A model generated the notes under the pieces. The model had not been told where the DNA came from. It saw only the letters and a program-made list of their open reading frames with translations, and ran no database searches. Positions 16,932 to 40,650 of a DNA stretch of 61,763 nucleotides are shown here, one piece after another. This stretch comes from Eubacterium coprostanoligenes. GTDB lineage: Bacteria > Bacillota > Clostridia > Oscillospirales > Acutalibacteraceae. Position 1 is the first letter of the stretch; each line of letters opens with the position of its first letter. The position numbers and the translations under genes are program-made. Location of the stretch: positions 1 through 61,763 of the forward strand of contig NZ_FUWW01000013.1 of assembly GCF_900167205.1 (NCBI RefSeq), given 5' to 3'.

Positions 16932-17798
16932 TTACGCAAGTTTTATAATTGTAAAATCCGATACTGTAGCTTCTGTACCGCCTGCAGACGGTGTAACGGT
17001 AAAGGCTGTTGCGATAGGATTTACAATGCTTAAAACAGTGTTTGCCGCTGTTGTTGTAATGATTGTTTTGCCTTCAATTATTCCGTAGTCGGCTGCATTT
17101 CCGAATGTTGCATTCGGTTGAACAGCACCGTTAACCGCAATGCCTAATTGACCGGCTGTATTTGTATTTACCTTAAACATTATAAGATAAGTTCCTGTAT
17201 CTGCTAAATTAAATGTTGAATTAGTTAATCTTGTAATGCCTGTTGTTGAAGCTGACGTATTTGGAAATTCTACTGCTGTATTTTGTGCAATAGCGGTAGG
17301 ATTGTCGTTTGGAGCAAGTGCATAAAATGACGCATATTCGCTAATTCCGCCCGCAGGGCCTGTCGGACCTACTGCACCAGTTGCACCTGCAACACCCTGC
17401 GGACCTTGAGGACCTGTCGGACCTACTGCGCCCGTTGCACCTGCAACACCCTGCGGACCTTGAGGTCCTGTCGGACCTACCGCACCTGTTGCACCTACGG
17501 CACCCGGAACTCCTTGCGGACCGGTTGGACCTATTGCACCATCAGGACCCGGAATACCTTGTGGTCCTGTTGGACCGATCGGACCTTGCGTTCCTTGATA
17601 GCCCTGTACACCTTGCGGACCCATAGGACCCATTGGACCGGTTGGACCTGTCGGACCAACTACCGGATACGGAACAGGAATAGGCTCCGGCGGAGCAGGA
17701 GGGAACGGTGGTCTTGGCGGAGGTGGTGGAGGACACGGACAAGGCTTAATTGGAGCAGGGCATATACAGTGCTGCTCCCTTTGATTGTATATCATCAT
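16932..17798 (-). CDS. Collagen-like glycine-X-Y repeat protein (BclA-like)
   Basis: A 288-aa protein. The N-terminal segment has [14 protein letters not shown] followed by proline-rich sequence. It leads to 34 uninterrupted Gly-X-Y triplets rich in GPT, GPQ and GAT, then a C-terminal globular domain of about 130 aa resembling the BclA/TNF-like trimerisation domain. Two adjacent 54-bp units (six triplets each) are nearly identical, showing repeat expansion. There is no signal peptide, consistent with deposition on spores from the mother cell. The Thr in GPT/GAT triplets are candidate O-glycosylation sites for the neighbouring glycosyltransferase. Start ATG 17798 follows AAAGGTGA. A possible sigma-K promoter (AC, 17 bp, CATAAAATA at 17858-17866 on the minus strand) lies upstream. 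Confidence 0.87.
17353..17495 (-). repeat. 54-bp tandem repeat within the collagen-like gene
   Basis: About 2.5 near-identical copies of a 54-bp unit encode the triplets [19 protein letters not shown] third, diverged copy lies further upstream in the gene. The copy number is likely to vary between strains. Confidence 0.7.
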
Positions 17799-17928
17799 AT
17801 TTATCACCTTTTCATCAATTTATATATACCTGCCATAACAGCCAAAGGCATATATTTTATTTTATGAATTTCGTATATTTGTGGTTACTTTTTCGACAAA
17901 AATATTTTTTGAAAAAAGTCAAAAAAAC

Positions 17929-18037: not shown

Positions 18038-18487
18038 ATGAAGATGAGTGATGTAATAGCTGATATGATACTTGATATGTTTGACGATAATACATCAACT
18101 GTTCAAATTCAGCGTAATGATTTAGCAAACAGAATCGGTTGTGTGCCAAGTCAAATTAACTATGTGATTACATCAAGGTTTACCCCCGAAGCCGGCTATC
18201 AGATTGAGAGCAGGCGAGGTGGCGGAGGATATATCTTAATCACCCGTGCAACTTCTCCGCAAAACGCTTTAATGGGCTTCATTAATTCAATAGGAAACAG
18301 TATTGACGAGAGAAGTGCAAAGGCAAATTTAATAAATTGTAATTATCAAAAATTGATTAATGACAAGGCAACCAAAATGATGGTTTGCGCTGTTGCAGAC
18401 AGCAATTTTAAAGGTGTTCCAAAGGAATACGCAAATGTTATTCGTGCAAGACAGCTAAAGCAGATGCTTCTTGCATATATTGATTAA
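18038..18487 (+). CDS. ctsR: CtsR, heat-shock repressor of clp genes
   Basis: Dimeric winged-helix repressor that binds tandem heptads in clp promoters and is inactivated by heat and by the McsAB system. The 149-aa length is typical. MSDVIADMILDMF at the N-terminus, the helix-turn-helix with GCVPSQINYVI, and the wing SRRGGGGYI are classic CtsR features. The Arg-rich wing is the known target of arginine phosphorylation by McsB. ATG 18038 is used; ATG 18044 is an equally plausible start. It is the first gene of ctsR-mcsA-mcsB-clpC and has CtsR boxes upstream. Confidence 0.95.
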   Translation: MKMSDVIADMILDMFDDNTSTVQIQRNDLANRIGCVPSQINYVITSRFTPEAGYQIESRRGGGGYILITRATSPQNALMGFINSIGNSIDERSAKANLINCNYQKLINDKATKMMVCAVADSNFKGVPKEYANVIRARQLKQMLLAYID

Positions 18488-18503: not shown

Positions 18504-19031
18504 ATGAAATGTACACATTGTCATATGAATGAGGCTAATACTCATATTCAAAGAATTATTAACGGTCAAAAGGAAGAAATGTATCTTTGCGAGGATTGCG
18601 CAAGAGAACTCGGAGTTATGAATGATTTTAGCTTTGAACCATTTTCAGCCGATAGCTTTTTCGGCGACAGTTTCTTCGGCAATCTTTTGGGCGCAGGTGC
18701 AAGTGCATTTAATTCACTTGTTGGATTGAACAGCTGTGCAACTTGCGGTTCAACACTCAATGATATTGTAAATTCCGGTCATGTGGGTTGTTCGGATTGC
18801 TATGACAAGTTTGATGACAGACTTGCCCCAAGCGTTGAAAAAATCCACGGAAATGTAAAACATATCGGTAAAAATGTAACCTATACCGAGGCTACAAATA
18901 CCGAAAAGAAAACAGCTAACGACACCTTGGCACAACTCAAGGAAGAGCTTAAACAAGCCGTAAAGGAACAAAGATTTGAAGATGCGGCGACTCTTCGAGA
19001 TAAAATCAAGGAGCTTAACAAGGAGAATTGA
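18504..19031 (+). CDS. mcsA: McsA, zinc-finger UVR-motif activator
   Basis: A 175-aa adaptor that activates McsB and contributes to stress and metal response. Four CxxC pairs are visible: CTHC, CEDC, CATC and CSDC, the usual two zinc-finger modules. A C-terminal UVR motif (LKEELKQAVKEQRFEDAATL) follows. ATG 18504 has GGAGG 9 nt upstream. The stop overlaps the mcsB start. The intact zinc modules contrast with the degenerate partner McsB. Confidence 0.93.
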   Translation: MKCTHCHMNEANTHIQRIINGQKEEMYLCEDCARELGVMNDFSFEPFSADSFFGDSFFGNLLGAGASAFNSLVGLNSCATCGSTLNDIVNSGHVGCSDCYDKFDDRLAPSVEKIHGNVKHIGKNVTYTEATNTEKKTANDTLAQLKEELKQAVKEQRFEDAATLRDKIKELNKEN

Positions 19032-20029
19032 TGATGGAAAGCAGATATAAAAACACATCTGATAATGCGGATGTTGTGTTGTATTCAAAGGCTGTGCTTA
19101 TGCGAAATTTGGCACACACACCATTTCCAATGAGAATGAACAACGACGCCAAAAGAGCGGTAGTTAAAAAGGTTTTTGCCTGTATAAAAAATTCACCGCT
19201 TGCACAGGAATTTGATTTAATCAATACCTCCGATATTTCAAAAGCGAAGGCTTTGTCTTATGCGGAAAAGGATTTAATTTCCGACAGCTTTGCAAAAGAA
19301 AATTCCTCTTTTCTTCTTTCAAAAAATGAGGATGTCAGCATAATGATAAATGATGATGACCATATTAGAATTTCATCGTTTTCTGCCGGTCAAAATCCTC
19401 TTTATGCTTATAACAAAGCAAACGACATTGATGATATATTAATTGACGGACTTCCTATTGCATATTCGGACAAATATGGATTTTTGACATCATCTCCGTA
19501 CAATTTGGGTACAGGTCTTAATGTTTCAATCGTTCTTCATTTGCCGGCACTTGCTCAAAGGAATGTTATTCCAAAGCTGTCAACCACAGTTTCGAAACTC
19601 GGCTTCGTTCTGAGCGAAATGTATGATGGCGGAGCAGGAGATTTTTATATCCTTACAAATACGGTAACTCTCGGTATTACCGAGAAAAGTGCAATTGATA
19701 ATTTGAATTCGGTTTGTAATCAAATTGTACTTCAAGAACGAAAACTCAGAGATTCTCTCAAAGAAAACGCCGAATGTGAGGATAAAATTTATCGAACTTT
19801 GGGCATACTTAAACTTGCAAGAAAGCTGTCTGTTGATGAATTTTTAAACAGTATTTCTTTAGTCAGACTCGGTATATCGCTTGGATACTTTGATTATTCA
19901 TACAAACTTATCGGGGATATGATGTATAACCTATTTGATGCAACTCTTGTTGAGTCATCAAAATCAGATTTAACTCAGTCAATGTGCGAAACCTTAAGAG
20001 CACAAATAGTCAGAGAAAAATTGGTGTAG
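19031..20029 (+). CDS. mcsB: McsB-like guanido kinase homologue, probably catalytically inactive
   Basis: Member of the phosphagen-kinase family at the usual McsB position. The fold is recognisable: INDDDHIRIS, NLGTGLNVSIVLHLPAL, and the C-terminal KLARKLSVDEF...RLGISLG region. Residues that bind ATP phosphates are mostly missing. The family motif SRIRLARN reads SKAVLMRN. GTGLRAS reads GTGLNVS. TACPTN reads TSSPYN, losing the reactive Cys. The NEEDH Glu is Asp, and the RG-x-GEGSEA loop reads YDGGAGDF. Only the DHIR arginine remains. At 332 aa the reading frame is intact, so this is a pseudoenzyme or a scaffold rather than a pseudogene. Starts at 19031 and 19034 are both possible after AAGGAG. 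Confidence 0.85.
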   Translation: MMESRYKNTSDNADVVLYSKAVLMRNLAHTPFPMRMNNDAKRAVVKKVFACIKNSPLAQEFDLINTSDISKAKALSYAEKDLISDSFAKENSSFLLSKNEDVSIMINDDDHIRISSFSAGQNPLYAYNKANDIDDILIDGLPIAYSDKYGFLTSSPYNLGTGLNVSIVLHLPALAQRNVIPKLSTTVSKLGFVLSEMYDGGAGDFYILTNTVTLGITEKSAIDNLNSVCNQIVLQERKLRDSLKENAECEDKIYRTLGILKLARKLSVDEFLNSISLVRLGISLGYFDYSYKLIGDMMYNLFDATLVESSKSDLTQSMCETLRAQIVREKLV

Positions 20030-20072: not shown

Positions 20073-22496
20073 ATGTATCGTTTTAATTCATTTACTACGA
20101 AAGCTAATGAGGTGCTTAACCTCGCAATCAAAAGTGCACAGGCATATGGTCACAATTATATCGGCACAGAGCATATCCTTATAGGCCTGCTTTCAACCGA
20201 TTCAACCATTCCTGCACTCACCAACAATAATATTACTTATGAGGGTGTAGACCGCCTTATTCGTGAAGAAATAGGCGTTGGCAACCCAACATCTCTTACT
20301 CCGGATGATTTCACGCCGAGAGCAAAGAGAATAATTGAAATTTCTTTCCAAATTGCAAGAACAATGCGTAATTCCTATGTAAGTGTTGAGCATTTGCTCG
20401 CTGCACTTCTTAAAGAGGACGACAGCTATGCTGTAAAGTTCATCAATGAACTTGGCACAGATTCTCAAAGAGTTTTTGATGATTTGATTAGCGATTTGAG
20501 TTCAAACAGCTATGACTCAAACCCACAGTCATCATCAAAGAAAAAGGGCAAGAGCAAAACTCCTACTCTTGATGAATTCGGCAAGAATCTTACAGAGCTT
20601 GCAAAGCAGGGCAAGATTGACCCTGTAATCGGCAGAGAAAAGGAAATTGAAAGAGTTATTCAAATTCTTTCAAGACGAAACAAAAACAATCCTTGCCTTA
20701 TTGGTGAACCGGGTGTTGGTAAAACCGCAATCGCAGAGGGACTTGCACTTAAAATCGTTAACGGTGAAGTTCCTGAAATGCTTGCAAACAAAACTATTTA
20801 TTCACTTGATTTGACTTCAATGGTAGCCGGTACAAAGTACAGAGGCGATTTTGAGGAAAGAATTAAAAAGGCAATGGATGAAGTCAAGGACAACAAGGAT
20901 GTTATCCTCTTTATTGATGAAATTCACAACATTATGGGTGCAGGTGCTGCCGAAGGTGCAGTTGACGCTGCCAACATCCTCAAGCCGTCACTTGCTCGTG
21001 GCGAAATTCAAGTAATCGGTGCAACAACTATTTCAGAATACAGAAAGAATATTGAAAAAGATGCTGCACTTGAAAGAAGATTTCAGCCTGTAACAGTCGG
21101 TGAACCAACAGAAGAAGAAACTGTTGAAATTCTTAAAGGTCTTCGTGATAAGTATGAGGCACATCATAAGGTAAAAATTACCGATGACGCTATTAATTCG
21201 GCTGTAAAACTTTCATCAAGATATATTAACGACAGATTTTTGCCTGATAAGGCTATTGACCTTATTGATGAGGCTGCTTCGGTTGTAAGACTTAATGCTT
21301 ACACACTTCCTCAAAATCTTAAGGATATGGAAGAAGAAATTAAGCGTCTTAATGCCGAAAAGCAGGATGCAGTCAATAACCAAAAATTTGAAGAAGCTGC
21401 AAAGATCAGAGATAAGGCAAATGAACTCAATAAACTTCTTAATGACGAAAAATCAAAGTGGCGTAATTCTTCAAACCATGATGTAAAGGCAGTTTCAAGC
21501 GAAGAAATTGCACAAGTTGTTTCTCAGTGGACAGGCGTTCCTGTAAATCAACTTACAAAAGAAGAAAGCGAAAGATTGCTTAATATGGAGAAAATCCTGC
21601 ACGAAAGAATTGTCGGTCAAGATAAGGCTGTAAGTGCAATTTCAAAGGCAATCAGGAGAGGCAGAGTAGGACTTAAAAACCCTAACAGACCTATCGGTTC
21701 GTTCATATTCCTTGGCCCAACCGGTGTTGGTAAAACAGAACTCTGTAAATCCCTTGCAGAAGCAATGTTTGGCGATGAAAACGCAATTATCAAACTTGAT
21801 ATGTCCGAATATATGGAAAAGCACACTGTTTCAAAACTTATCGGTGCGCCTCCGGGATATGTTGGCTTTGATGAAGGCGGTCAGTTGACCGAGAAAATCA
21901 GAAGAAAGCCATACAGCGTTGTACTTTTTGATGAAATTGAAAAGGCTCATCCTGATGTGTTTAATATGCTTCTTCAAATTCTCGAAGACGGTGTATTGAC
22001 TGATTCACAGGGCAGAAAAGTTTCGTTCAAGAATGCAATCATCATTATGACTTCAAATGTCGGCGCTTCAAAGATCACTGATGAAAAACTTGCTCTTGGC
22101 TTTGTTCAAGAGGATGGCAAGAAACTTTCAATCGAAGATTTGGTAATGCCTGATTTGAAAAAGACCTTTAAGCCTGAATTCCTTAACCGTCTTGATGATA
22201 TTATCGTATTCAATCAGCTTGACCAAAACGACATTGAGGAAATTGCAAAGCGTATGCTTAAATCTTTGAAGAAGAGAACAGCAGACCTTGGCATTGAACT
22301 TGATTTTACAGACAATGCCATCACAGAGCTTGCAAAAGAGGGCTTTGATAAAACCTATGGTGCAAGACCGCTTCGTCGTGCTATTCAGTCAAAGATTGAG
22401 GATAGACTTTCCGAGCTTATTCTTGATAAGACAATCGGCGAGGGTTCAAAGTGCACTGTTGACTTTTCTGACGGCGATTTTCAGTTTAACTCCTAA
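20073..22496 (+). CDS. clpC: ClpC, AAA+ unfoldase of the ClpCP protease
   Basis: An 807-aa Hsp100 chaperone that unfolds proteins and feeds them to ClpP. The N-domain has two Clp repeats. The Glu residues that dock phospho-arginine in Bacillus ClpC appear kept (GTEHIL and SVEHLL). D1 Walker A is GEPGVGKT. A middle domain with a UVR-like coiled coil follows. D2 Walker A is GPTGVGKT, with APPGYVG and [11 protein letters not shown]. The ClpP-binding loop is LGF (in LALGFVQ). ATG 20073 was chosen over the GTG at 20055 because AAAGG lies 9 nt upstream. It is the last gene of the ctsR operon. Confidence 0.96.
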
Positions 22497-22605: not shown

Positions 22606-23043
22606 TTGAAAATTTCTACAAAAGGCAGATATGCACTGCGTATGATGATTGACTTAGCGCAAAATCAAGGCGATGGATATGTGTCTTTGAAGGATATAGC
22701 AAACAGACAGGAAATTTCCAAAAAATATTTGGAGCAAATTGTGGCAATTCTCAATAAACCTGATGTTCTTCGTACAAACAGAGGTTATCAGGGCGGATAC
22801 AGACTGGCAAAAAACGCAAATGAATATACAGTAGGAGATATTTTGCGTTTGACAGAGGGCGGTCTTGCTCCCGTGTCTTGTCTTGATAATTCGCCTATTT
22901 TGTGTGACAGAGCAGAGGATTGTATTACTCTTCCTATTTGGAAAGGGTTGTACAAGGTTATATCCGAATATCTTGACAGCATAACATTGCAGGATATTGT
23001 TGATAAAAATTCGGATGTTTCAAACTTTGATTATATAATTTAA
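22606..23043 (+). CDS. Rrf2-family regulator, probably Fe-S (IscR-like)
   Basis: A 145-aa winged-helix regulator beginning MKISTKGRYALRMMIDLA, with the family motif RGYQGGYRLAK. Three cysteines in SCLDNSPILCDRAEDC (C-x7-C-x5-C) match the cluster-binding pattern of IscR/RirA-type members, whereas the cysteine regulator CymR lacks them. The start is TTG at 22606 with GGAG 8 nt upstream. It heads an operon with DUF2804 and FRG genes. Likely targets in the window are itself and iscS at 46968, based on similar palindromes; this is inferred. Confidence 0.87.
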   Translation: MKISTKGRYALRMMIDLAQNQGDGYVSLKDIANRQEISKKYLEQIVAILNKPDVLRTNRGYQGGYRLAKNANEYTVGDILRLTEGGLAPVSCLDNSPILCDRAEDCITLPIWKGLYKVISEYLDSITLQDIVDKNSDVSNFDYII

Positions 23044-23053
23044 GGAGTCAGCC

Positions 23054-24079
23054 ATGAGAAATCACGAAGTAGTAAACAGCCACAATCTTCTTGATGAAAA
23101 CGGTCATCTTATCGAGCCGGGTTGGAGCAAAACATTGGTTCAAAAATATGACAGAAATATGATAAAAAAACGCAAGACAAGAATCAAAGAATGGGATTAT
23201 TATTATATAATGTCAAATTCTAACAAGTTTTGCCTTGCTCTCACAATATCCGATTTGAGTTATCTTGGTATGTACAGCGTCAGCTTTATTGACCTTGACA
23301 AAGCAGTTGAACACACTCAATCGGAGCTTACTCCGTTTCCTATGGGCAAAACAAATTTGCCGTCACATTCTGCAAGAGGCGATGTTTCGTTCAAAAATAA
23401 AAATCTTGATGTTTCATTCAAACACATTGGCGATTCAAGAGCAATAAAAATGAACTACAAATCATTTGATAACAAGCAGGGCGTTTCCTGTGATATTATT
23501 CTTACAGATGAACCTCGTGACAGTATGGTTATTGCAACACCTTGGGCAGAGGATAAAAAAGCGTTTTATTATAATCAAAAGATTAACTGTATGCGTGCAA
23601 GCGGAACAGTAACATACAAAGGCAAAACCTACACACTCAACCCTGAAACAGACTTTGCGGGTCTTGATTGGGGCAGAGGTGTTTGGACAAGAGATAATGT
23701 TTGGTATTGGGGCTCCGGTTCGGGACAAATAGACGGTGTACCGTTTGGTTTTAACATCGGCTATGGCTTTGGTGATACATCCGCCGCAAGCGAAAATGTT
23801 ATTTTCTATAATGGCATTGCAAACAAATTTGATGATGTTGTGTTCAATATCAGTGACAATTACACTGACCCTTGGACAATTAAATCGTCCGATGGCAGAT
23901 TTGATATGGATTTCACACCGATTATCGACAGAAGTGCGTTGATTGATGTTAAGGTTATCGTTACCGATCAGCATCAGGTTTTCGGCAAGATGAACGGCAC
24001 GGCAATTCTTGATGACGGTACAAAAATTGAACTAAAGGACTTTGTCTGCTTTGCAGAAAAGGTACATAACAAGTATTGA
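23054..24079 (+). CDS. DUF2804 domain protein
   Basis: A 341-aa soluble protein recognisable as DUF2804 by its start (a conserved ...LLDENGHLIEPGWSK opening), the central FAGLDWGRGVWTRDNVWYWG segment and a beta-rich lipocalin-like pattern. No signal peptide or membrane helix is present. Function is unknown for the family. It starts 10 bp after the Rrf2 gene with AAGGAG upstream, and its stop overlaps the FRG gene start (TGATG). It is therefore co-expressed with both. Confidence 0.8.
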   Translation: MRNHEVVNSHNLLDENGHLIEPGWSKTLVQKYDRNMIKKRKTRIKEWDYYYIMSNSNKFCLALTISDLSYLGMYSVSFIDLDKAVEHTQSELTPFPMGKTNLPSHSARGDVSFKNKNLDVSFKHIGDSRAIKMNYKSFDNKQGVSCDIILTDEPRDSMVIATPWAEDKKAFYYNQKINCMRASGTVTYKGKTYTLNPETDFAGLDWGRGVWTRDNVWYWGSGSGQIDGVPFGFNIGYGFGDTSAASENVIFYNGIANKFDDVVFNISDNYTDPWTIKSSDGRFDMDFTPIIDRSALIDVKVIVTDQHQVFGKMNGTAILDDGTKIELKDFVCFAEKVHNKY

Positions 24080-25068
24080 TGAAAAAGTTTAACAAATTGT
24101 ATGATTTGGCAGGCAAACTTGAAGACGAGCTCGATTTTGACTTTCGTGCACAATCTCAAAGAATAGATTCGTTTCAGGAGTTTTATGAAAATATTATTGT
24201 TCCGTATGCTCACGGTGACAGAATTTACTTCAGAGGCGAAAGGATAAGAAGTATTGACCGTCCGCTTTTGCCGTCTATTTTCAGACATAGAAATATTGTG
24301 CTTGATGATGACGAAAATTTTGCACAACTTGATGCTCAAAGATTGCTCTATTTTTATAATAAATATCCCGAATATACCGATGTGTTCAAAAAGACCATCG
24401 GTGGTTTATCAGAGGATAATTTATATCCGTTTTTGAGCTTTTCACAGCATTATTTTGGTTTGAGTCCGCTGATTGATTTAACGAAAAATCCTTTTGTTTC
24501 TTTGTCTTTTGCATTGAAAAACAGAACGGAATATGACGAAGATATTCTTTTTTATACCGTTGAAATCAAGGACGAAAACGACTATACCACTCATTCTCAT
24601 ATTGCAAATGAGTGGATGAAGAATTATAATGTTATTGTACTCCGAGAAGCACCTACAAACGCAACCGATGCACTAAAGGAATATAGCAAGGAAAGTTTGC
24701 TGAAACGCAAAGAATACGGCAAAGAAAATCTGCTTAAAAACAAGGATTTGATTGAAGAAATAAAGGGCAGGTCAATATTTGAAATCAGCGCCCCTACGGC
24801 AAAGCTGATTGATGTACCTACCAACGATTTGATGCGCTTTCAGCAAGGTGTGTTCCTTTTGCTTGATGATTTTACGATATTCGGCAACGGCTATCTTACA
24901 AAGAAAATCAGGGATGATTTCGCTATTAAAAAGTGGATAATCAACAAGGATATTTGTCCTGAATTGCTGGATTATCAAAAACAAAAAGCCCCGTATTATG
25001 ATTACGATACTATAACCGATTTGTCAAAGGCAGTCGGTAAAATAAAGAAAAATTATTTTAGGATGTGA
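24079..25068 (+). CDS. FRG-domain protein
   Basis: A 329-aa cytoplasmic protein. The FRG domain is recognised from IYFRGERIRSIDRPLLPSIF (about 55-75) and SFSQHYFGLSPLIDLTKNP (about 122-140), ending in ALKNR. The domain is common in accessory genes and prophages but has no established activity that I can cite. The start is ATG 24079, overlapping the DUF2804 stop. The C-terminal third is charged. Its place in an Rrf2-headed operon is unusual. Confidence 0.82.
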   Translation: MKKFNKLYDLAGKLEDELDFDFRAQSQRIDSFQEFYENIIVPYAHGDRIYFRGERIRSIDRPLLPSIFRHRNIVLDDDENFAQLDAQRLLYFYNKYPEYTDVFKKTIGGLSEDNLYPFLSFSQHYFGLSPLIDLTKNPFVSLSFALKNRTEYDEDILFYTVEIKDENDYTTHSHIANEWMKNYNVIVLREAPTNATDALKEYSKESLLKRKEYGKENLLKNKDLIEEIKGRSIFEISAPTAKLIDVPTNDLMRFQQGVFLLLDDFTIFGNGYLTKKIRDDFAIKKWIINKDICPELLDYQKQKAPYYDYDTITDLSKAVGKIKKNYFRM

Positions 25069-38343: not shown

Positions 38344-40650
38344 ATGAAACAACCAATGTGTACACGATGCGGTGAAAGACCTGCTATTGTGTTTATTCAA
38401 AAAATGGAAGACGGCGTTATGAAGCCCGAGGGGCTTTGCTATAAGTGTGCCAAGGAGCTGAATGTCGATATGGGACCTATTCAGGGCCTTATGGAAAAAA
38501 TGGGCATCAGCGAAGACGAACTTGAGCAGGCAAGCGAGCAAATGGGTATGTTTATGGAAAATATGGACGATTTCGATTTCGGCGATATCGGAGCAATGTT
38601 CAATTCCGAAAATGCCGACGGTGCTCAAACAATGCCTTTTTCAGAAATGATGAACAATATTATGGGCGGTTCTGAATCATCAACCGAAGAACCAATGAAA
38701 AAAGGTAAAAGAAATCATAAAAGGTCACAGGACGAGTCGAGAAAGTTTTTAAACAGCTACTGCAACAATCTTACCGAAAAGGCTAAAAAAGGCGGAATAG
38801 ACAATATTATCGGCAGAGAAAGCGAAATTGAGCGTGCTGTTCAAATTCTTTGCAGAAGAACAAAGAATAACCCTTGCCTAATCGGCGAGCCGGGTGTTGG
38901 TAAAACTGCTATCGCAGAGGGTCTTGCAATCAAAATCGCCAAAGGTGAAGTTCCTGCAAGACTTATGGATAAAGAAATCTATCTCCTTGACCTTACAGCC
39001 CTTGTTGCCGGAACTCAATTCAGAGGTCAGTTTGAGGGCAGAATTAAGGGCCTTGTTGATGAGGTTAAGCATGAGGGAAATATTATCCTCTTTATTGACG
39101 AGGTTCATAACCTTGTCGGTACAGGTGACAGTGAGGGCACAATGAATGCCGCTAATATCTTGAAACCTGCACTCTCAAGAGGTGAAATTCAAGTTATCGG
39201 TGCAACTACCTTCAACGAATATAGAAAATATATTGAAAAAGATGCTGCTCTTGAAAGAAGATTTCAGCCTGTTAAAGTTGAAGAACCGTCAATTGATGAT
39301 GCTTACAGAATGCTTCTTGGTATCAAAAACTATTATGAAGATTATCATAAGGTAAAAATCAACGATTCTTTGGTTTACAAGGCTGTTACAATGAGTGAAA
39401 GATTTGTTACCGACCGTTATTTGCCTGATAAGGCGATTGACCTTTTGGATGAATCGTGCACTTGTGCAAATCTTCGCAATCCTGCAATCAGCAGATACCA
39501 AATGCTCCTTGAAAAGAAAAACAACCTTATGGATAATATTGATAAGTTGTCAGAGCCTGAAGAGGGCGAGCAAATTGATTATGAGCTTATTTCCAAGCTT
39601 AAATCACAACTTATTAACATTGATAACGAGATTCCCGAGGTTGAAGAAAAAGCAAAGGATAATCAAGTTCTTGAAGCTGATTTGGCGAAGGTTATTTCTC
39701 TCTGGACAGGTATCCCTGCATCAAAAGTTGAACAGGGTGACATTAACAAACTTGCCTCTTTGGATAATGAACTTAAATCTCATATCATCGGTCAAGATGA
39801 AGCAATTGAAAAGGTCGCAAATGCAGTTCGCAGAGGCAGAATTCAAATCAGCCCTAAAAAAAGACCGCAATCATTTATTTTTGTCGGCCCGACAGGCGTC
39901 GGCAAAACCGAGCTTGTAAAACAGCTCGCTAATGCACTTTTTGATTCACCTGATAACCTTATTCGTCTTGATATGAGTGAGTTTATGGAAAAATTCAGCG
40001 TGTCAAGAATTATCGGTTCACCTCCGGGATATGTTGGATATGATGACGCAGGTCAGCTTACTGAAAAAGTACGCAGAAAACCGTATAGTGTTATCCTTTT
40101 TGACGAGATTGAAAAAGCTCATAAAGATGTTCTTAATATCTTACTTCAAATTCTTGATGAGGGCAGAATTACAGATGCACAGGGCAGGGTAGTTAACTTT
40201 GAAAACACGGTAATTATTATGACCTCTAATGCAGGCTCAACTGACCAAAACACTATGGGATTTGGAAAATCAGCTGACGATATTAACCGTGAAGTTACTA
40301 TGAAAGCTCTTGAAAGATTTTTGCGTCCTGAATTTCTTGGCAGAGTTGATGAAATTGTAATTTTCAACAAACTTACTTTTGATAATTTCGAAAAGATTGC
40401 AAAAATTATGCTTGATGAACTTGTTCCGAGTTTAAAAGACAAGGGTATTGACTTGGTTTATGAAGACAGTGTTCCTGTTTATCTTGCAAAAAAGGCTTAT
40501 GGTTCAAAGAAAAACGCAAGAGGACTTCGTGATGCCGTCAGACGAGATATTGAGGAAAAACTTGCAAATACAATTGTTTTCAACAACGATATCGACATAA
40601 AAAAGATTACTTTAACAGGAACCGATGAGATTTCTGTAAAAATAAATTAA
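38344..40650 (+). CDS. ClpE-like AAA+ unfoldase with N-terminal zinc finger
   Basis: A 768-aa Hsp100 protein. Instead of the Clp N-domain it begins with a zinc finger (CTRCGERP...CYKCAKEL; four Cys), then an acidic Met-rich linker, as in ClpE. D1 Walker A is GEPGVGKT and D2 Walker A is [21 protein letters not shown] and [11 protein letters not shown] are present. A candidate ClpP-contact loop is MGF in NTMGFGK. It lies at the end of the ruvC-pgsA run with TAGGAG before the ATG, and I see no CtsR heptads upstream. Expression thus looks constitutive rather than heat-inducible; that is inferred. Confidence 0.88.

Follow-up and report, generated by a model that had tools for sequence, protein, structure and literature searches.

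The McsB arginine kinase, known from Bacillus subtilis, Geobacillus stearothermophilus, and Staphylococcus aureus, belongs to the phosphagen kinase family and is encoded in an operon of the order ctsR-mcsA-mcsB-clpC; the annotation of a gene as mcsB is commonly read as implying phospho-arginine signalling. The animal arginine kinase acts on a small-molecule substrate and carries a full catalytic set, whereas the bacterial Ser/Thr pseudokinases have a fold unrelated to that of McsB. The five phosphate-binding arginines considered below form a set that we take from arginine-kinase structures, and the C167S mutant of Bacillus McsB is reportedly inactive. In the portions of the literature drawn on here, roles are described for Arg126, Arg229, Arg309, Glu225, Glu314, and Cys271 of animal arginine kinase (PMC11075012), the loop Y147-Y153 of S. 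aureus McsB contacts McsA (PMC12467219), and the R337A/D338A mutant of McsB loses its higher multimers (PMC8370763). Passages of a B. subtilis review describe McsA as both activating and restraining McsB, with oxidised McsA releasing McsB and the freed McsB, its kinase activity blocked, displacing CtsR from DNA; the same passages report that the adaptor function of McsB needs kinase activity (PMC5506225).

Here, we analyse the mcsB gene of a 61,763-nucleotide stretch of Eubacterium coprostanoligenes DNA, the whole of which we call the window. Its product matches the described McsBs in fold, operon, McsA-binding loop, and C-terminal domain, but lacks seven of eight catalytic positions as well as the R337/D338 phospho-arginine receptor, and no YwlE-type partner was found for it. 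It has its catalytic domain in common with animal arginine kinase (Foldseek TMq 0.55–0.62 among the matches listed) and recalls the bacterial Ser/Thr pseudokinases, which are likewise kinase family members retained without catalytic residues (reviewed in PMC12599244, where the mentions of McsB found are reference-list entries). McsB and pseudokinases are thus each known, but we did not find a pseudokinase branch of McsB described, and a search of the open-access literature, a scope outside which most subscription journals fall, returned no report of McsB pseudokinases.

Residues, fold, and operon of the window McsB

A first-pass annotation, drawn from the sequence alone, had described this McsB as a pseudo-kinase in which four of five phosphate-gripping arginines were absent, SRIR read SKAV, GTGLRAS read GTGLNVS, the RG-loop was lost, and the reactive Cys and catalytic Glu were changed, all within an intact 332-codon frame. 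An alignment with the solved Geobacillus and Bacillus McsBs bears this out—the catalytic motifs align ungapped, with the exception of a three-residue deletion in the lid loop, and each of the changes is seen (Table 1). We scored eight catalytic positions (R29, R31, E121, R125, C167, R176, R207, and E212, the B. subtilis numbers being derived from the chain numbering of that alignment), among which the window protein retains R125 alone. Four of the five phosphate-binding arginines (R29K, R31V, R176N, and R207S), both Glu residues, and the reactive Cys are altered, giving the eight-position string KVDRSNSG, as compared with KVEKSKKN at the sister locus L139 (70% identity); the GLRAS motif has become GLNVS. 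Arginines do not appear to be supplied from shifted positions, given motifs that are ungapped outside the lid loop; the only ones within five residues of a lost position are R113 and R25, and canonical copies likewise conserve R25 at 90% or more. Sequencing or assembly error was ruled out, L139 having the same kind of losses and the Cys being absent from 36/36 genus copies, and a chance pattern is ruled out because 112 of the 219 McsB rows compared retain all eight positions.

The frame is open from its ATG at 19031, which shares bases with the stop codon of mcsA (TGATG at 19029-19033, preceded by AAGGAGAAT). An AlphaFold model (pLDDT 92.1, 34-row alignment) finds its closest PDB folds in 6fh1_A (TMq 0.91), 6fh3_A, and 6tv6_D (range 0.91–0.93), which together with the PF00217 domain places the protein in the McsB fold. 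The McsA-binding loop keeps its length and aromatic ends, and the C-terminal domain is preserved. Scores against the curated McsB equivalogs lie below their cut-offs (NF002194, 288 against 385; NF053707, 235 against 500). From its residues, we infer that the window McsB would be unable to tag proteins with phospho-arginine.

Table 1. Features of the ctsR-mcsA-mcsB-clpC locus and of its surroundings in the window
Feature	Coordinates	Strand	Evidence
Collagen-like protein	16932-17807	-	GPTGP repeats
CtsR-operator-like direct repeat GGACAAAgaaAGTCAAA	17969..17985	+	Top match in window, 1 mismatch to RGTCAAANNNRGTCAAA
ctsR, repressor	18038..18487	+	PF05848 E 1.3e-31; PF17727 E 2.5e-14; RRGGGG loop retained
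mcsA, McsB activator	18504..19031	+	NF053706 126 bits, below 210 cut-off; 8wtb_B and 8gqd_E matches
mcsB, putative pseudokinase	19031..20029	+	332 aa; PF00217 137 bits; below-cut-off NCBIfam McsB equivalog matches
SRIR to SKAV	19085..19096	+	R29 to K20, R31 to V22
NEEDHIR to NDDDHIR	19349..19369	+	E121 to D109; R125 retained as R113
SCPTNVGTGLR to SSPYNLGTGLN	19490..19522	+	C167 to S155, R176 to N164
RG lid loop VRGIYGEGSEAVG to LSEMYDGG---AG	19610..19639	+	R207 to S195; E212 region to G200, lost; 3 residues shorter
Phospho-arginine receptor R337/D338 to C319/E320	19985..19999	+	Alignment; R341 retained as R323
clpC	20073..22496	+	N-domain Glu residues retained
Genes 3' of clpC	22606-25068	+	Rrf2-type regulator, DUF2804 protein, FRG-domain protein
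ClpE-like second Clp ATPase	38344-40650	+	768 aa; N-terminal CxxC like McsA first finger

The operon has the order ctsR, mcsA, mcsB, clpC, and encodes a cognate McsA with its eight Cys intact (residues 3, 6, 29, 32, 78, 81, 96, and 99 when numbered from the ATG at 18504). The operator-like repeat lies 52 bases 5' of the ctsR ATG, a position that by itself is suggestive; a scan of the window for CtsR operators with up to two mismatches gave six matches against 3.2 expected, a yield no better than chance (as many arose in 9 of 100 shuffles). The same setting extends across the window lineage, with ctsR and clpC adjoining mcsB in 51/51 loci examined and the eight McsA Cys invariant in 51/51 genus rows. 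The CtsR glycine loop and the N-domain Glu residues of ClpC, which we take to be E32 (50/51 genus rows, with one gap) and E106 (50/51), are retained in the genus just as in canonical genomes; the first-pass annotation was right about these Glu residues, yet their equal retention in canonical and eroded genomes says little, and we set it aside as evidence that phospho-arginine is read. Elsewhere in the window, the ClpE-like ATPase is 49% identical to ClpC over residues 136-787, and the collagen-like gene, divergent from ctsR, encodes a GPTGP-repeat protein of a kind seen among spore surface proteins.

McsB across the genus

The close relatives in the McsB comparison are 'Eubacterium sp.', 'Clostridium sp. 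CAG:678', Ruminococcaceae, and similar MAGs, several of them from rumen or gut. McsB occurs in 34 of 37 genus genomes, including that of the window, and in two further genus genomes; it was unmatched by profile search in the other three, which are 73–97% complete. Loci L139-L188 were assigned to the genus by McsB identity and residue states, one of them being titled 'Bacteroides sp.'. The survey of orthologues proposed in the first-pass annotation found losses of the same kind across the genus and no second copy in the window genome: C167 is replaced by S, N, or D in all 36 copies, and R337 is lost in all 34 that extend that far. The remaining positions vary, with K at R176 in 30 copies and at R29 in 28, E121 retained in 31, R31 in 27, and Arg at R125 in 21. 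Since most genus copies retain E121 and R31, the window species is an extreme of a genus-wide condition, and the Lys, Arg, and E121 retained in most copies leave a slight chance of weak residual catalysis outside it.

A column test that is independent of our choice of residues, and that covered columns present in the window protein, gave twelve columns that canonical McsB conserves at 95% or more (113 rows, with the Geobacillus row entered twice) and that the genus has lost. These are the serine and arginine of SSR, the Q after HIRI, the Cys, R176, the G, G, and E of the lid loop, the Q of FQISN, R337, D338, and, as the twelfth, a Leu near HLPAL for which we know of no catalytic role. The mcsB frame is untruncated in 34/36 genus copies; in two loci, L048 (G028) and L078 (G412), McsB stops after the kinase-like domain and runs directly into clpC, the operon being otherwise retained.

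Among genus mcsB pairs with dS < 1 (n = 9), dN/dS ranges from 0.056 to 0.131 (median 0.077), as compared with 0.031 to 0.43 (median 0.096) for canonical pairs under the same limit (n = 7), a span that means the low ratio is not peculiar to the genus. For the window and L139, dN is 0.222 and dS 1.52. The ratio of mcsB to clpC dN is 2.5 in 1092 genus pairs versus 1.2 in 36 canonical pairs (the pairs not being independent)—measured against clpC, mcsB of the genus changes at about double the canonical pace, so its constraint has been partly relaxed. By these rates, mcsB of the genus is under purifying selection, weaker than that on the enzyme form. With catalytic motifs lost, the frame intact, and purifying selection acting, the gene has the marks of a pseudokinase, and the label in the first-pass annotation is well supported by sequence, for the genus as a whole and, as set out below, recurrently beyond it.

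Eroded McsB, YwlE, CtsR, and ClpC in other lineages

Across 219 McsB rows (the window, Geobacillus, and 217 loci), all eight positions are retained in 112, six or fewer in 107, and seven in none, a proportion that is not a census, as the collections overlap, the genus contributes more than its share, and loci with low scores were deliberately included. Nor are the rows independent, because L139-L188 overlap other genus genomes; L001, a duplicate of the window, was dropped, and L084 is truncated, counted within the 107 but uninformative. Of 396 genomes drawn evenly from the order, 171 carry the domain, and the 107 McsBs read comprise 82 canonical, 24 eroded, and one truncated, with 64 unread. 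Among 29 class-level loci, fetched mostly for low score and excluding L375 at a contig edge, eight of eight positions are retained in three, seven in two, and none to two in 24. The stop-to-stop frames of these 24 span 319–386 aa, with mcsA and clpC as neighbours in all 24 and ctsR adjoining in 23.

On an rpoB tree of 30 genomes, the 'eroded' label changes seven times (bootstrap range 6–8), five of the changes being forced by well-supported branches. The changes fall in the window genus; G279; G243; G094/G134; G060-G122-G108-G285-G187-G215-G392; G127; and G337, and canonical congeners exist for G243 (G344 and G261) and G127 (G269). McsB erosion would accordingly be counted as having arisen about seven times independently.

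The eraser appears to have gone with the kinase. In P-loops, position 5 separates YwlE (Thr, phospho-arginine) from the low-molecular-weight (LMW) tyrosine phosphatases (Ile, phosphotyrosine), according to the portion of PMC8001253 used here. No YwlE was found in the window genome, whose sole LMW phosphatase carries a P-loop of Tyr type, CHGNICRS, so that the cognate eraser of the arginine-kinase system is missing too. LMW phosphatases occur in 25/39 genus genomes, are of the CHGNIC Tyr type in 25/25 (one interrupted by a stop), and include none of YwlE type. Within the window family (52 genomes), a YwlE-like gene is present in 35/35 canonical genomes versus 1/17 eroded ones (Fisher p 1.6e-12, uncorrected for kinship), or in 31/35 versus 1/17 when Thr is strictly required; of those 31 calls, 28 were read as proteins and three by DNA motif only. 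The four canonical family genomes that differ (G261, G320, G402, and G422) carry Ser or Val in place of the P-loop Thr and are classed as YwlE-like by overall sequence. Outside the family, among genomes with McsB read, the YwlE DNA motif occurs in 42/47 canonical versus 2/7 eroded genomes, G044 having in addition to these 42 a variant, CTGNLCRS. An independent-pairs test that considers kinship finds agreement in 4.9 of 5 pairs (p ~0.06), five pairs being too few to reach 0.05. Judged by gene content, McsB erosion tracks YwlE loss. Exceptions run in both directions: no YwlE-like gene accompanies canonical McsB in G043, G114, G228, and G349 (4/47 classified, outside the family), and one does accompany eroded McsB in G094 (family) and in G051 and G219 (outside). 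A DNA-motif match in G060 proved spurious on reading, and in G227, G371, and G424, which bear McsBs of unread state, the LMW phosphatase was unmatched.

CtsR is present in 13/13 canonical versus 7/20 eroded genomes tested, and a full-length ClpC match is missing in eroded genomes only (8/20), these retaining ClpE- and ClpB-type AAA proteins. Neither CtsR nor a full-length ClpC match was found in G060, G122, G108, G285, G187, G215, G279, and G392 (six genera, 99–100% complete), in all of which mcsA and an eroded mcsB stay adjacent and the second zinc finger of McsA has its four Cys. The rpoB tree requires four changes for the absence of CtsR and two for that of ClpC. B. subtilis has both McsB (PF00217) and CtsR; in 14 control genomes that include it, PF00217 went unmatched and CtsR was matched in Lactococcus lactis alone, and CtsR absence is judged here against the 13/13 canonical relatives detected by the same search. 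In L073 (G122) and L077 (G060), the McsA frame beside the eroded mcsB is without the first zinc finger.

Possible roles for an eroded McsB

At a probability of about 0.5, we favour a maintained pseudokinase in a normal ctsR-operon setting, with a role as McsA partner in the CtsR circuit. Purifying selection, the invariant McsA Cys, the persisting operon, and the retention of McsAB without CtsR or ClpC argue for maintenance, and the repetition of the same loss in relatives, usually with loss of the eraser, suggests that McsB probably works without chemistry. The window protein is probably a stoichiometric partner of McsA. In this scheme, reduced McsA would hold McsB; oxidation of the McsA zinc-finger thiols would free it; and the freed McsB would strip CtsR off DNA, derepressing the clpC operon. 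What would then remain of the B. subtilis scheme is its kinase-independent half, the phospho-arginine half having been dropped.

The main rival, which we think unlikely, is also a pseudokinase, but one kept for a function that McsA and McsB perform as a pair without CtsR or ClpC, for instance that of a scaffold or chaperone responding to redox state or zinc. In its favour are the adjacent mcsA and eroded mcsB in the eight genomes lacking CtsR and ClpC matches, the four Cys kept there by McsA, and the two genus copies that end after the kinase-like domain and run into clpC, and those eight genomes do indicate that the CtsR circuit is not the sole reason for retention. On the other hand, the window lineage has ctsR and clpC beside mcsB at every one of its 51 loci, the pair has no known client, and the McsA frames read in G060 and G122 lack the first zinc finger.

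A role for McsB as a non-catalytic ClpC adaptor, as the first-pass annotation had offered, or as a ClpC inhibitor, seems to us decidedly doubtful. A tie to ClpC agrees with the adjacency of the two genes in the genus and with the binding of ClpC by B. subtilis McsB in unstressed cells, described in part of PMC5506225; against it, adaptor function reportedly depends on kinase activity and eroded McsB persists in eight genomes without a ClpC match. A kinase-independent role with McsA and CtsR is the better fit for the window lineage. Natural McsBs free of catalysis set kinase activity apart from adaptor function, two roles called difficult to dissect in the passages of the B. subtilis review (PMC5506225).

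It is improbable that mcsB is a slowly decaying relic, retained for the time being through the structure of the operon and coupled translation. The raised dN relative to clpC, the two truncated copies in 36, and the three genus genomes in 37 with McsB unmatched are consistent with decay, but dN/dS is low, 34/36 genus frames are untruncated, and other lineages keep frames of 319–386 aa with zero to two of eight residues beside mcsA and clpC (24/29 class-level loci). Very improbable is a weak or re-specified kinase that has Lys for Arg at two phosphate contacts and still carries out chemistry: however suggestive the genus copies with K at R29 (28/36) and R176 (30/36), E121 (31/36), and R31 (27/36), the Cys is lost in 36/36, the lid loop is shortened, no YwlE-type gene was found in the genus, and the window species retains R125 only. 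That another arginine kinase does the tagging, the other option raised in the first-pass annotation, is not borne out, as a profile search of the 99%-complete window genome returned a single gene of the PF00217/phosphagen-kinase family, the YwlE-type eraser was not found, and nothing in support came to light.

More tentatively, and beyond the window, the McsA-McsB pair may have an ancient kinase-independent core, on which phospho-arginine tagging is an optional layer. That layer (the catalytic site, the phospho-arginine pocket, and YwlE) would have been shed repeatedly in many Clostridia lineages with the pair kept, in some after the loss of CtsR and ClpC, and McsB pseudokinases would form a widespread class. 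With at least 24 eroded copies among the 171 genomes of the draw that carry the domain, and with erosion tracking YwlE loss, an mcsB gene cannot be taken to mean that the modification is made.

Slighter changes occur in a few other loci. In L203 and the related L216, where clpC was not found 3' of mcsB in the latter, Cys167 is Tyr and R176 is Lys, the remaining six positions being retained. In L355 and L356 (family f29, genus g172, with genomes of 0.8–0.9 Mb), McsB keeps seven of the eight positions and differs only by Ser for the reactive Cys, possibly the first step of erosion.
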